Assembly (NCBI GenBank): GCA_017510405.1
Contig: JAFWNG010000013.1
Location: forward strand, 1 to 64,000
DNA length: 64,000 nucleotides
Reading direction: 5' to 3'
Origin: Solobacterium sp.
GTDB lineage: Bacteria > Bacillota_I > Bacilli_A > Erysipelotrichales > Erysipelotrichaceae
Of this stretch, positions 24,835-33,227 are shown piece by piece. Made by a program: the position numbers and the translations under genes. Within the stretch, counting starts at the first letter, position 1. Every line of letters starts with the position of its first letter. The notes beneath the pieces are model-generated. The model ran no database searches. It was not told where the DNA came from and was given only the letters and a program-made list of their open reading frames with translations.

Positions 24835-24870
24835 GTGCAATGCATTGACCGGCCCGGAAAGAGGAGTTTT

Positions 24871-26082
24871 ATGAGAACGTATGCGAAGATCACAGTGTCC
24901 CGCAAGGGGGAACCGTTTCTGAAGAAAGGGCAGACGCGCATGTATGCCAATAATGCCGTGTCGCTTTCCGAAGGCGCGGAAAACGGCGATCCGGCAGATA
25001 TCGTGACGGAAGACGGCGAATATATCGGCACCGGCTATCTGTCCCTGAAAAGCCATGTGCGCGTACGCATCCTGACAAGAGATCCCGAAGCGGAGCTGGA
25101 CCATGTGTTCTATAAGAAGCGTTTCCGGGACGCGTGGCGGTACCGCAATGCTGTGTGCGGAAGTGAAACAGACAACTGCCGGCTGGTGTTTTCGGAGGCG
25201 GACCGTCTGCCCGGTCTTGTGGCAGACCGCTACAACGATCTGATCGTTACCCAGATCAGCACCTTCGGCATGGAGAAAAACAAAGATATGATCTACAGCG
25301 CGCTGCTGGAAGTGATGCAGGAAGAAGGCCAGGTCATTCACGGCATCTATGAGCGCAACGATACGCCTTCCCGCACCAAGGAAGGCCTGCCGCTGTACAA
25401 AGGTTTCTGGAAAGATACCGGCATGTCCGTACGCACCGTCATCTCGGAAAACGGCCTGAAGCTGAATGTCGATGTGGAAAACGGACAGAAGACCGGCTAC
25501 TTTCTGGATCAGAAAAGCAACTGAATGCTGATTCGCTCCCTGGCGAAGGAAATGACGGTCATGGACTGCTTCACGCATACCGGCGGCTTTGCGCTGAACG
25601 CGGCATACGGCGGCGCAAAACATGTGGACGCCGTGGACATTTCCGAAACGGCGCTGAAACAGGCCAGGGCCAACGCGGTGCTCAACGGTCTGGAAGAGCG
25701 CATGTCGTTCGTGCAGGCGGATGTGTTCGAACATCTGAATACGATACAGAAAGGCGCGTACGACCTGATCATTCTCGATCCGCCCGCGTTTACCAAGTCG
25801 CGCCGGACGCATGATCATGCCTTCCAGGGCTATAAGCGCATCAATAAAAAAGCAATGGAACTGCTCAGCGACGGCAGCTACCTTGCGACCTGCTCGTGTT
25901 CCCGCTTCATGGAATCGCAGGACTTCGAAGTCATGCTCAGGGAAAGCGCGGACGAAGCAGGGGTAATGCTGAAGCAGCTTTCCTGCACCCAGCAGAACGC
26001 GGATCATCCGATCCTGTGGAACAGCGAAGATACTTCCTATCTGAAATTCTATCTGTTTCAGATTCTTGAGAAAGGACGTTAA
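24871..26082 (+). pseudogene. RlmI-like class I SAM-dependent rRNA methyltransferase, interrupted by one in-frame TGA
   Basis: Reading through the TGA at 25522-25524 gives a 403-residue protein of normal length for the YccW/RlmI family (23S rRNA m5C methylation). Residues 1-75 form a PUA-like domain, then LVADRYNDLIV, IYERND, TGYFLDQKSN, stop, then MLIRSLAKEMTVMDCFTHTGGFALNAA (SAM loop), AVDIS and LDPPAFTKS. Homologues have FLDQ-x-x-NR at the break, so Arg (CGA) appears changed to TGA. No base is lost or gained, and the part after it is undamaged. An ATG directly follows the TGA, so a separate C-terminal piece (25525-26082) could be made. GAGGAG is 5 nt before the ATG. Confidence 0.85.
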
Positions 26083-26084
26083 CT

Positions 26085-27506
26085 ATGAAGATCTGTCTTC
26101 TGAACGATTCATTTCCGCCGGTCATCGACGGTGTGGCGAATGTTATAAAAAGCTATGCCGACGTGCTGGCGGCGGAAAAAGTACACGATGTCATCGTCGG
26201 AACCCCGGTCTATCCGGATGCCGGCTATGAGAAACACCCATATCCGATCATTACCTATCCGTCTCTGGACGTGACCGCTCTGACCGCGGGATACCGTGCC
26301 GGCTATCCCTTTCCGGTAAAAGAGATCGCGGAGATGACGCAGTTCGCGCCGGATATCATTCATACCCACTGTCCGATCGTATCCTGCTTTATTGCCCGGA
26401 GCCTGCGGGAAGCGTCCGGCGCACCGGTCGTCTTTACCTACCATACGAAATATGATATCGATATCCGCCGGACCATCCCGGTGCCGCAGCTGCAGAAGGA
26501 AAGCATCCGCGCCCTGGTGAACAATGTTTCCGCCTGTGACGACGTATGGGCAGTCAGTCACGGCGCTGCGGACAACCTGCGTTCGCTCGGATACGAGGGA
26601 AACGTCATCGTCATGCCCAACGGCGTCGACTTTGCCCGCGGCAGACAGAGCGAAGACTATATCGAGAAACTGAACCGGGAATACGATCTGCCGGCGGATG
26701 TACCGGTATTCCTGTTTGTCGGCCGCATCATGAACTACAAAGGACTGCCGCTGATCCTGAACGCACTGCGTGTTCTGAAAGACGAAGGGAAGGCGTTCCG
26801 GATGGTATTTGTCGGTGACGGCGCCGACCGGAAGCCGCTGATCAAAAAAGCAGAGGAGTACGGCTTCACGGTATATGTTAAGGAAGAGAGCGGCATCACA
26901 AAGACAGGGGACGGCGATGCAGTGATCCTGTTTGCCGGGGCAGAGCGCAGCCGGGAGATGCTGCGGGCATGGAATACGCGGGCAGACCTGTTTGTTTTCC
27001 CGTCCACGTTCGATACCAACGGACTGGTCGTAAGGGAAGCGGCTGCCTGCGGACTGGCGAGCGTGCTGATCAAAGACTCCTGCGCTGCCGAAGGCGTGAC
27101 CGACGGCCGCAACGGCTATCTTGTGGAAGAAAACTATGAATCGCTTGCGCAGCAGCTGATCTGGGCCTGCGGTCATATGGAAGAACTGCACACAGCCGGT
27201 GAAAACGCCATGAACGAGATCTATCTGTCCTGGGCGGATGCGGTCCATCTTGCCGAAAAGCGCTATGCCGAAGTACTGGACCTGAAGAAGGCGGGAAGAC
27301 TTCCGGAACACCGGAAACTGGCAGACGATCCGCTGTTTGAAATGACTGCCGACGCCGTGCACCGCTATATTGAGACACATACCTATACGATGCCGCATTA
27401 TGAAGGCATGCTGGAGAACTTCGAAGAAACACTGCGGGGAAACCAGCAGATACTCGAAGATATCCTCCGGGAACTGAAGGAAGGTTTCTTCCCGCACGGA
27501 TCCTAG
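26085..27506 (+). CDS. Glycosyltransferase family 4 (diacylglycerol glucosyltransferase-like)
   Basis: 473 residues, GT-B fold. N-terminal NDSFPPVIDGVANVI and HTHCPIVSCFIARSL, the acceptor-side motif YHTKYDIDI, then PNGVDF, VGRIMNYKGL and the donor-site E-x7-E motif in FPSTFDTNGLVVREAAACGL. The N-terminal pattern is that of enzymes adding glucose to diacylglycerol, giving membrane glycolipids; a cytoplasmic-face peripheral enzyme. The C-terminal 70 residues beyond the GT-B fold are an extra helical tail. It starts 2 bp after the methyltransferase stop with AAAGGA as ribosome site. Confidence 0.87.
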   Translation: MKICLLNDSFPPVIDGVANVIKSYADVLAAEKVHDVIVGTPVYPDAGYEKHPYPIITYPSLDVTALTAGYRAGYPFPVKEIAEMTQFAPDIIHTHCPIVSCFIARSLREASGAPVVFTYHTKYDIDIRRTIPVPQLQKESIRALVNNVSACDDVWAVSHGAADNLRSLGYEGNVIVMPNGVDFARGRQSEDYIEKLNREYDLPADVPVFLFVGRIMNYKGLPLILNALRVLKDEGKAFRMVFVGDGADRKPLIKKAEEYGFTVYVKEESGITKTGDGDAVILFAGAERSREMLRAWNTRADLFVFPSTFDTNGLVVREAAACGLASVLIKDSCAAEGVTDGRNGYLVEENYESLAQQLIWACGHMEELHTAGENAMNEIYLSWADAVHLAEKRYAEVLDLKKAGRLPEHRKLADDPLFEMTADAVHRYIETHTYTMPHYEGMLENFEETLRGNQQILEDILRELKEGFFPHGS

Positions 27507-29485: not shown

Positions 29486-30325
29486 ATGATCAGTAAAATA
29501 TCCGTAATGGCTGCCGATATTGACGGTACATTGTGCATAAAGGGCGGCAATCTTATGCCGGAAACACGCCGGGCGATCCAGCGTCTTCATGACATGGGCG
29601 TACGCTTCGGCACAGCAAGCGGCCGGCCGCTTGACGAAAGAACACTTGTGAAAGCGCAGGAGTGGGGACTCGGATTTGATTTTGATTTTGCCATCGGCAT
29701 GAACGGCGGTGAACTGTACGATATTACGACCGGAAAATATGAGAGGTATTTTCTCATCCAGCCGGATACCATTCGCCGCATCCTGAACCGGATCTCCAAA
29801 TTCGATATCAATGCCATCGTTTACCGGAACGGTTACGATGAGATCTATGCTCTGCGTATGGATGACTTCCTGCGGGATTCGATCAAACGCAATCATTCCC
29901 ATGTGGAGATCGGTGATGTGGATTTCCTGAGCCGTTTCGCGACCGGGAAGATCGAAGTGCATATGAATCCGGCGATCAAGCCGGAGGTGCTGGCAGCGGT
30001 CGATGAGATCGCCGGTGAGGACTTCCGTTCGGTGATCACCTTTGAACTGGCGGATCATTCGACGCTGGAGTTCCAGGATCCCCGCATCAACAAAGGTCTG
30101 GCGCTGCGCAAGTACAGCGAAAAGCACGGGATCCCGCTGAGCGAGTTCATTGCCTTCGGCGATATGGATAACGATATCGGACTGCTGGAAGCGGCAGGCT
30201 GGGGCGTATGCCTGGCAAACGGTTCGGAGACGATGAAATCGATCGCGGATGCCGTCACGGAATACGGCGTTCTGGAGGACGGTGTCGGACGCTATCTGAA
30301 CAAGTATGTCCTGAATGAAAAGTGA
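29486..30325 (+). CDS. HAD-IIB (Cof-type) phosphatase
   Basis: 279 residues. Motif I is AADIDGTL, motif II GTASGRPLDE, motif III the NKGLALRKY lysine and motif IV FGDMDNDIGLLEAAG; MGNG-equivalent is LANGSE. Substrate unknown. The start at 29486 has CAGGAG 9-10 nt upstream; an overlapping ATG 4 nt earlier is out of frame. Followed by a strong terminator. Confidence 0.9.
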   Translation: MISKISVMAADIDGTLCIKGGNLMPETRRAIQRLHDMGVRFGTASGRPLDERTLVKAQEWGLGFDFDFAIGMNGGELYDITTGKYERYFLIQPDTIRRILNRISKFDINAIVYRNGYDEIYALRMDDFLRDSIKRNHSHVEIGDVDFLSRFATGKIEVHMNPAIKPEVLAAVDEIAGEDFRSVITFELADHSTLEFQDPRINKGLALRKYSEKHGIPLSEFIAFGDMDNDIGLLEAAGWGVCLANGSETMKSIADAVTEYGVLEDGVGRYLNKYVLNEK

Positions 30326-30349
30326 GAACCTGCGCGGTTCTCTTTTTCT
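30324..30349 (+). terminator. Intrinsic terminator after the plus-strand HAD gene
   Basis: GAGAACC pairs with GGTTCTC around TGCGC, then TTTTTCTT. Confidence 0.85.
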
Positions 30350-30395
30350 TCGCAAACACTGTATAATAACGGTAACAGACGGAGGTTATATCAGT

Positions 30396-31322
30396 ATGAA
30401 ATGCAGAGTATGCGGAGCTGAACTCGAAGAACTTACTATGTACTGCACGCAATGCGGCGCGAAACAGTATGAAAGCAGGCCGCAGGAAGTCGAACTGATC
30501 ATGCCGGATGCGAAGCACAGCCGCATCGTTGTCCATTCTTATGACAATATGACAAAGGCATTGACGAAGATACGTGATCTGACCGGTCTTACCGTTCCGG
30601 AAGTCAATGCCGTACTGCGGAATCTGCCGGCAGAACTGGTCAATGGACTGGATGAACAGACAGCGACGGAGATCGCGTCTGAGCTGGAAGAAAACGGTAT
30701 ACATGTATCCATAGAAGGCAAAAAGGGTGTTCCGGAAGCCGTCATAGAAGAGATGGAAGCTGTGGATGTGGAAGAACCGGTGATCGAACCGGAGATCGCT
30801 GAACCGGAAGTCATCGAGGAACCGATCTCGGAGCCAGAGATTCCGGAGCCGGTAACAGTTGAAGAACCGGAAGTTGTTGAAGAGCCGATCCCTGAGCCGG
30901 AAATAACAGAGGAACCGGAGATCACAGAAGAACCGGAAGTGATCGAAGAGCCAATTTCTGAAACAGAGATCATCGAAGAACCGATTCCGGAACCGGAGGC
31001 TGAGGAAGAACCTGCGGCAGAACCGGAAGTTATTGAAGAACCTGTTCCGGATCCGGAAATCATTGAAGAACCGGAAGAGGAATCGGTCAGTGAACCGGGT
31101 GAGATCGAGCTGACGATCGAACCGTCCACATTTGAGGAGATCGCGGCAGAGATCGAACTGATCGACGAATCCTTGCATTTCGATAAGAAAGATCCGGAAA
31201 ACATCGTACTTACCGGTGTTGAAGGAAAACGGCCGGCCGTCTTCCAGTCGGAAGATAATAAAGACAGCTGGTCGAATTTCGAAAAAGAAATGAATGCGTT
31301 CATGAAGAAAGACGACGAATAA
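30396..31322 (+). CDS. Zinc-ribbon protein with L7/L12 C-terminal-like domain and Pro/Glu-rich tail
   Basis: 308 residues, no signal peptide. Residues 3-20 are a zinc ribbon (CRVCG...CTQCG). Residues about 43-108 look like the C-terminal domain of ribosomal protein L7/L12: KALTKIRDLTGLTVPEVNAVL aligns with the KIxVIKxVRxxTGLGLKEAK helix pair, then LPAELVNGLDEQTATEIASELEENG and a closing strand HVSIEG. Residues about 117-262 are an acidic repeat of EEP-x-I/V-EPE units; the last 50 residues are again ordered-looking. GGAGG lies 11 nt before the ATG. The function is not known; factor binding at the ribosome is a guess from the domain. Confidence 0.75.
   Translation: MKCRVCGAELEELTMYCTQCGAKQYESRPQEVELIMPDAKHSRIVVHSYDNMTKALTKIRDLTGLTVPEVNAVLRNLPAELVNGLDEQTATEIASELEENGIHVSIEGKKGVPEAVIEEMEAVDVEEPVIEPEIAEPEVIEEPISEPEIPEPVTVEEPEVVEEPIPEPEITEEPEITEEPEVIEEPISETEIIEEPIPEPEAEEEPAAEPEVIEEPVPDPEIIEEPEEESVSEPGEIELTIEPSTFEEIAAEIELIDESLHFDKKDPENIVLTGVEGKRPAVFQSEDNKDSWSNFEKEMNAFMKKDDE
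30768..31090 (+). repeat. GAACCGG-rich degenerate repeat coding for Pro/Glu units
   Basis: Repeated GAACCGGA(A/G) units in phase with the codons, coding for EEP/EPE blocks. Not perfectly periodic; wobble positions vary, so it is selected at the protein level. Confidence 0.7.
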
Positions 31323-31325
31323 ACG

Positions 31326-31353
31326 AAAAAGCGGGCATCTAGTGCCCGTTTTT
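31326..31353. terminator. Bidirectional intrinsic terminator
   Basis: CGGGCAT and GTGCCCG pair around CTA, with AAAAA before and TTTTT after; it separates the zinc-ribbon gene from the converging serine hydrolase gene. Confidence 0.85.
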
Positions 31354-33209
31354 CAATATGCCTGAAGAAGGCGTTCTTTCAGCTTCTGAGCTGTTTTCTG
31401 CAGCTGCGGATCCTTCTCGGCGTACCGCGTCAGGACAGCCAGCTTGCTTTCAGCATTGCGCACTGCCGGGTGTGAGGAAGAAACGCCGGACGGAATGCGC
31501 TTGATGCTTTCCGCTGTCATATCTGCCAGCAGACTCATGAGTGCATCATGGCCGCCGTCAAAGAACAGCAGTTCCGGTATAAGGCCCAGTCCCGACGCGG
31601 AATACCAGTCGCCGTCAAAGAGATTCGGATCGGCATGCGGATCGGTGACAGGGGTATTCTTGGCATTGGTAAGATATGCGATGACCGTATCCCGTACCGA
31701 ATCGATCATGATCAGGGTGCCGGTCCATCCCTGATGGCCGATCACAGAAGGATGCGCCGAAGCGGAAAAGTGCCATGGCCGCTCATGATCGCCGTACCGG
31801 AACCATCCCATTCCCCAGTCACCGCGGTCCACGCCGGCCGGAGAAGCGAAATAATCACGGACGTTTCGGGAAAAGAAGCGGTGCGTACCATATCCGCCGT
31901 ACAGCATCGCCATGCCGAGAACAGCGGCGTCATGCGCCGTCGCAAACAGCCCGGCGTGACCGCTGATGCCCGCCATGGAGTAATATGCTTTTTCATCGTG
32001 GGCTTCTCCCTGGATGACCTCTGTGCGGTATTCAGGAATCGTGTGCAGGCCGTCGCGGGTGTTTCCATGCAGCTCCGTGGCGGCGCAGTCGTCTTTCGCA
32101 AAGCCGTGAAGGAGGGGCCGGAACGCAATGCGGGACAGTCCCATCGGAATCAGGAACGTTTCCCGCAGACAGGTGTCAAGATCCTGTCCGGTAAGTTTTT
32201 CGATCACCGCTCCCAAAAGCATATAATCGGTATCGGAATAGAGGGTGCGGGTGCCCGGCTCATAGAGAAGGGGCGTTTCAAACATGGCCTGCAGGGTGCG
32301 TTTTCTGGTTTCTTCCGTACCGTCACAGCCGGTATACAGCGGATTGACGGCATCCGGATCGGGACGGAAGACAGCGGCGTCATAGTGCTGGTAATAATAC
32401 CGTGCGTCGGCGGGAAAACCGGCACAGTGGGAAAGCAGGTGGCGCAGGGTGATGCGTTTCTTCCACGCTTTCTGCGTATCGGGATCGTTGCCGGTGCCGG
32501 CTTTGTACGGAATGACCTGGACATCCTGCCAGAAAGCGTCTCCCAGTATCTCAGAGACCTTTGTATCGGGCGTCACCAGGCCGTCGCTGATCAGCTTCTG
32601 CAGGGGATAGTTTACAGCAAACATCTTTGTGACCGAGGCAAGGTCATAAAGGGTATCCGGTGTGACGGAAGACGGAGTAGAGGAAGAAGTATCCTTTACG
32701 CCCCATGCTTTCCGGATGACTTCTTTCCCATGCCGGATCATGACCAGGGAAGCGGACGGGAATCCGTACCGGATATCTTCGCGGATCAGTTCCTCGAGGA
32801 GAAGTTCTGCTTCGCCCGGTTCCCGGCGTGAAACACTCTGAACCACGGGAAAGGGGATCCGGACGGTCACTGCCTCCGCAAGACCGCACGGTTCGATATT
32901 TGTGACCTGCAGGGTATTGCGGCCGCTGCGGGCGATCGCATGATAATCCAGCAGGAACGTTTCGCCCGGTTCAAACAGAGCGGGATCGATGCGGACGCCG
33001 TTTACAAACAGATCGAAGGACTGCACTTCGCGGCGGACCTCCACATACAGAACACCCTGGTCTTCACAGCCGGTGAAGCCGTACAGGGAGTTCATGGCAA
33101 GGGATTTCTGAACGATGCCGCACCAGTCCGGAAAACTCACGCATGCCTGCCATGAGGCGTTTTCCGGTATAACAGCAGATGAAACGGTATAACGGTAAGA
33201 TGATTTCAT
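31353..33209 (-). CDS. Serine hydrolase, beta-lactamase/PBP family (YfeW-like), with N-terminal beta-sandwich
   Basis: 618 residues. The C-terminal domain (about 135-560) is a class C beta-lactamase/DD-peptidase fold: Ser192-x-x-Lys195 in ASVTK, the Tyr motif YSDTDY and HQGWTG in place of KTG. The first 125 residues are a predicted beta-rich domain (LYVEVRREVQSFDLFVNGV). No signal peptide is visible, odd for a wall enzyme; it may be an intracellular esterase. I start at ATG 33209, 6-7 nt after GACGAGG. It is 18 bp from the GNAT gene on the same strand. Confidence 0.82.
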   Translation of the reverse strand: MKSSYRYTVSSAVIPENASWQACVSFPDWCGIVQKSLAMNSLYGFTGCEDQGVLYVEVRREVQSFDLFVNGVRIDPALFEPGETFLLDYHAIARSGRNTLQVTNIEPCGLAEAVTVRIPFPVVQSVSRREPGEAELLLEELIREDIRYGFPSASLVMIRHGKEVIRKAWGVKDTSSSTPSSVTPDTLYDLASVTKMFAVNYPLQKLISDGLVTPDTKVSEILGDAFWQDVQVIPYKAGTGNDPDTQKAWKKRITLRHLLSHCAGFPADARYYYQHYDAAVFRPDPDAVNPLYTGCDGTEETRKRTLQAMFETPLLYEPGTRTLYSDTDYMLLGAVIEKLTGQDLDTCLRETFLIPMGLSRIAFRPLLHGFAKDDCAATELHGNTRDGLHTIPEYRTEVIQGEAHDEKAYYSMAGISGHAGLFATAHDAAVLGMAMLYGGYGTHRFFSRNVRDYFASPAGVDRGDWGMGWFRYGDHERPWHFSASAHPSVIGHQGWTGTLIMIDSVRDTVIAYLTNAKNTPVTDPHADPNLFDGDWYSASGLGLIPELLFFDGGHDALMSLLADMTAESIKRIPSGVSSSHPAVRNAESKLAVLTRYAEKDPQLQKTAQKLKERLLQAY

Positions 33210-33227
33210 AAGCACCTCGTCTATGGA

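Follow-up and report, generated by a model that had tools for sequence, protein, structure and literature searches.

Whether a stop codon within an otherwise well preserved gene reflects a lesion of the living organism, a slip of the assembly or a working arrangement is the question raised by a locus of the uncultured gut bacterium Solobacterium sp. at positions 24871-26082, on the forward strand of the 64,000-nucleotide stretch of DNA analysed here (hereafter the window). The reading frame that begins with ATG at 24871 meets a TGA at 25522-25524 (codon 218), so that a continuous frame of about 400 codons is absent, and an ATG at 25525 abuts this stop in the same frame, which is then open to a TAA at 26080-26082. 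An earlier note on this DNA had described a split RlmI-like methyltransferase gene of this extent with a 185-residue downstream product, a description that sequence and translation bear out. The evidence presented below favours, with reasonable rather than strong confidence, the view that a nonsense substitution of very recent date has struck the conserved Arg codon 218 of this RlmI-type gene, making it most probably a genuine loss allele.

Architecture and identity of the locus

Judged from its sequence, the gene at this locus is of an ordinary kind, an RlmI-type 23S rRNA (cytosine-C5) methyltransferase gene with one stop, and it is intact apart from this in-frame TGA. It is preceded on the same strand by a Shine-Dalgarno-like sequence, located within GGAAAGAGGAG at 24859-24867 (limits approximate), for which the duplex with the anti-Shine-Dalgarno sequence amounts to -8.5 kcal/mol. 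As indicated by translation, domain and profile matches and structure comparison, the N-terminal part (24871-25521, 217 amino acids) comprises a PUA domain, a middle domain and the motif-X region up to FLDQKSN, the presence of the PUA domain being evident from a match to Pfam PUA_3 (PF17785, 8.2e-13, residues 7-70). The C-terminal part (25525-26082, 185 codons plus the TAA) is open and under constraint, and encompasses a SAM-binding Rossmann domain, recognized by Pfam Methyltrans_SAM (PF10672, 3.8e-21), with the DPP motif and the catalytic CSC region. The TGA is flanked by TGYFLDQ upstream and DCFTHTGGFALNAA downstream, and the sequence around it occurs once in the host genome. The two halves match consecutive parts of NCBIfam models of the RlmI type, and the read-through product covers positions 36-382 of 383 of NF053718 (5e-77). 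Since this product scores below the equivalog cut-offs of both RlmI models (259 against 575 bits for NF053718 and 244 against 712 bits for NF011707), the exact target nucleotide of the enzyme is left unassigned. All motif residues are kept, and D303, P304, P305, C341 and C343 are identical to those of all 36 orthologues of the same type. Two bases past the TAA lies the ATG of a co-oriented glycosyltransferase gene (26085-27506, forward strand), which is intact and conserved in synteny. Further along the window, a forward-strand frame at 30315-31322 combines a zinc-ribbon-like N-terminus (CRVCG..CTQCG) with a long, repetitive, acidic stretch rich in Pro and Glu and has no Pfam match, and a reverse-strand frame of 620 amino acids at 31353-33215 carries a domain of the serine beta-lactamase/PBP type (PF00144, 6.6e-51).

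Intact relatives and distribution in the genus

Sixty relatives were compared, of which 57 gave a match and 36 proved to be orthologues of the same type as this gene. The best orthologue is 78% identical across all 403 codons and has no stop, indicating that the split frame is not a product of chance. It belongs to the nearest relative with the gene, a Solobacterium sp. represented by a metagenome assembly from sheep rumen; a scan of contigs returned this relative as its sole match, and among members of the genus the closest DNA match reaches only about 75% identity. The conserved Arg that the earlier note had placed at the broken position was confirmed by homologue alignment: column 218 is Arg in all 36 orthologues (CGT 13, CGG 10, AGA 7, CGC 4, AGG 2, CGA 0), and the stop therefore sits in a place occupied by a sense codon in the intact homologues. 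When 315 genomes of the order were searched for a degenerate motif pattern followed by TRA (TAA or TGA, with TGG excluded), the combination of motif and stop was found in no other genome, and a conserved split gene was rejected on account of this uniqueness.

The motif pattern with an Arg-type codon (MGN) after it, taken as the mark of an intact gene, was present in 28 of 70 genomes of the genus and in 18 of the 41 of good quality, counts that represent a lower bound because the MGN pattern is strict. Many complete members of the genus have nothing closer than a paralogue of a more distant type (identity no higher than about 51%), and the host genome itself also has a distant paralogue, open and intact, at 45% identity (G000:C27:4403-5611). 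The gene is thus patchy within the genus, which often does without it. In another member of the genus the match falls into two partial pieces on two contigs (G008:C7:6338-7186 and G008:C36:9812-10309, corresponding to query positions 2-282 and 237-400).

Constraint on the two halves and the origin of the stop

Relaxed constraint in the C-terminal half was sought in conserved columns (those with conservation of 90% or more among the other orthologues), in dN/dS and in lineage-specific changes, and none was visible. This gene deviates at 3 of 70 conserved columns in the N-terminal half and at 6 of 95 in the C-terminal half; for the intact nearest relative the corresponding counts are 8 and 6. 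Values of dN/dS to that relative are about 0.15 and 0.08 for the N- and C-terminal halves, respectively, and are indicative only, as dS is saturated; lineage-specific changes in the C-terminal half are not in excess (8 nonsynonymous and 3 synonymous, versus 14 and 7 in the relative). The absence of decay in the second half implies one of three things: the stop arose too recently for traces to accumulate, it is not real, or the product is still in use. The earlier view of a single lesion in a gene that is not otherwise decayed stands, and with it two of the explanations offered there, a very recent mutation or an assembly error.

The same note had regarded CGA to TGA as the simplest change, which is where its account fits the data less well. 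Of the 479 Arg codons in 19 genes of the window, 3 (0.6%) are CGA, a codon that occurs in none of the 36 orthologues at this site, so that this route is not clearly the simplest. AGA, with 53 occurrences (11%), is also one base away from TGA, and the nearest relative has CGG at column 218; judging from codon use, AGA mutating in a single step, or a path of two steps, would be no less plausible. CGA is nearly missing from the window genes and is scarcer there than in the nearest relative, where 11 of 385 Arg codons are CGA, though tRNA-Arg(ACG) is present.

Weighing the alternative explanations

The conservation of the frame on both sides of the TGA under purifying selection is what would be expected if the stop were read through, by a near-cognate tRNA, as selenocysteine or by a suppressor, to give a full-length enzyme. 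The earlier note had listed this possibility, which has gained no positive support and appears very improbable indeed. RF2 (prfB) is present in the genome (501 bits), TGA terminates 12 of the 19 window genes and is the commonest stop among them, and the same genes contained no internal stop and hence no second internal TGA; recoding of TGA was rejected on these grounds. Selenocysteine was rejected as well, since in this 96.6% complete assembly neither tRNA-Sec nor SelB gave a match above the cut-off, the eight best tRNA-Sec candidates, all below it, being ordinary tRNAs according to ARAGORN. RNA folding around the stop is not unusual (z -0.43), and a programmed structure was rejected accordingly. 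A second way to preserve function would be termination and reinitiation at TGAATG, yielding two polypeptides whose halves would meet at the boundary between motifs X and I and together form an active split enzyme. The ATG does abut the stop, relaxation of constraint is not visible in the C-terminal half, and reinitiation close to stop codons is known in bacteria, with a dependence on the Shine-Dalgarno sequence ranging from none to essential (PMC6728339), so that a low level of the C-terminal fragment is possible. Against a dedicated restart, the anti-Shine-Dalgarno duplex at ATG 25525 reaches only -3.1 kcal/mol versus -8.5 kcal/mol at the gene's own start. Of 422 in-frame internal ATGs (from a gene set picked by length and including some antisense frames), one third do at least as well as ATG 25525. 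Met219 occurs in 6 of the 36 intact orthologues, suggesting that the ATG after the stop is ordinary variation, incidental rather than evolved as a start. A structure model predicted for the read-through product (mean pLDDT 89) puts residue 218 within a helix (215-224) just before the strand of motif I (229-232), which would place the break between the FLDQ motif and motif X on one side and the first Rossmann strand on the other, and not at a domain border. A product restarted at Met219 would thus begin within this helix, which belongs to the active-site region. Together with the uniqueness of the TGA arrangement to this genome, these observations deprive the two-polypeptide restart, also raised in the earlier note, of positive support and make a split enzyme a quite improbable outcome.

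The possibility that the TGA arose as an error of sequencing, assembly or strain consensus, and that the gene of the living organism is intact, deserves more weight; we regard it as possible but unlikely. The host genome is a draft (3.27 Mb in 46 contigs, 96.6% complete, 3.7% contamination), the nearest relative is known from a metagenome assembly, and the lesion is a one-codon difference within an otherwise well conserved gene. Nevertheless, across about 45 kb of synteny with that relative no other internal stop or frameshift affects a credible gene, the other apparent stops that were inspected being located ahead of the real start codons, past the ends of genes, or within frames that are antisense or unconvincing. 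Wider decay or poor assembly was rejected on this basis, and the assembly does not appear to be generally error-prone; a single wrong base could still be present. Consensus sequence seldom contains substitution errors that produce a stop, which also speaks against an artefact. A real nonsense allele is favoured by the invariant Arg in the orthologues and by the lack of any other motif-stop combination in the order, and is weakened by the lack of a second lesion of any kind that would independently mark the gene as dead rather than misassembled, and by the rarity in the window genes of CGA, the one-step precursor by transition.

Expected consequences of a probable nonsense allele

On the favoured reading of a recent nonsense substitution, ribosomes would stop at the TGA with RF2 and release a 217-residue protein, which would be inactive as an enzyme because it lacks the SAM-binding Rossmann domain. 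The allele may be fixed, or may be a strain allele caught by the assembly, and it would presumably be tolerated because the gene is non-essential, much of the genus lacks it and a distant paralogue accompanies it. E. coli cells that lose RlmI grow more slowly and remain viable (PMC7056703). The downstream glycosyltransferase gene could suffer polarity from the stop, and the adjacent ATG may permit some reinitiation, at most easing this effect. If the stop is real, the locus shows gene loss caught under way, in an rRNA methyltransferase that members of the genus freely retain or discard; were the stop an assembly slip, it would call for caution in pseudogene calls from metagenome assemblies. 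Neither reading would surprise a specialist.

Comparison with known systems

Among the closest known systems are RlmI-type enzymes of solved structure, with E. coli RlmI/YccW (PDB 3c0k, 4.4e-67) and PH1915 (PDB 2as0, 1.6e-76) giving colinear full-length matches to the read-through product, and TTHA1280 (PDB 1wxw) as another. The PUA domain and the FLDQxxNR, DPP and TCSCS motifs are common to these enzymes and the read-through product. They are uninterrupted, whereas this gene is broken at the Arg of FLDQxxNR, where the solved relatives have an aligned Arg (FLDQRENR in 2as0, YLDQRDSR in 3c0k). From recent single-lesion bacterial pseudogenes the locus differs in nothing of substance, the ATG after the stop looking incidental, and it shares with them one stop, an intact remainder, intact copies in relatives and a patchy presence of the gene within the genus.
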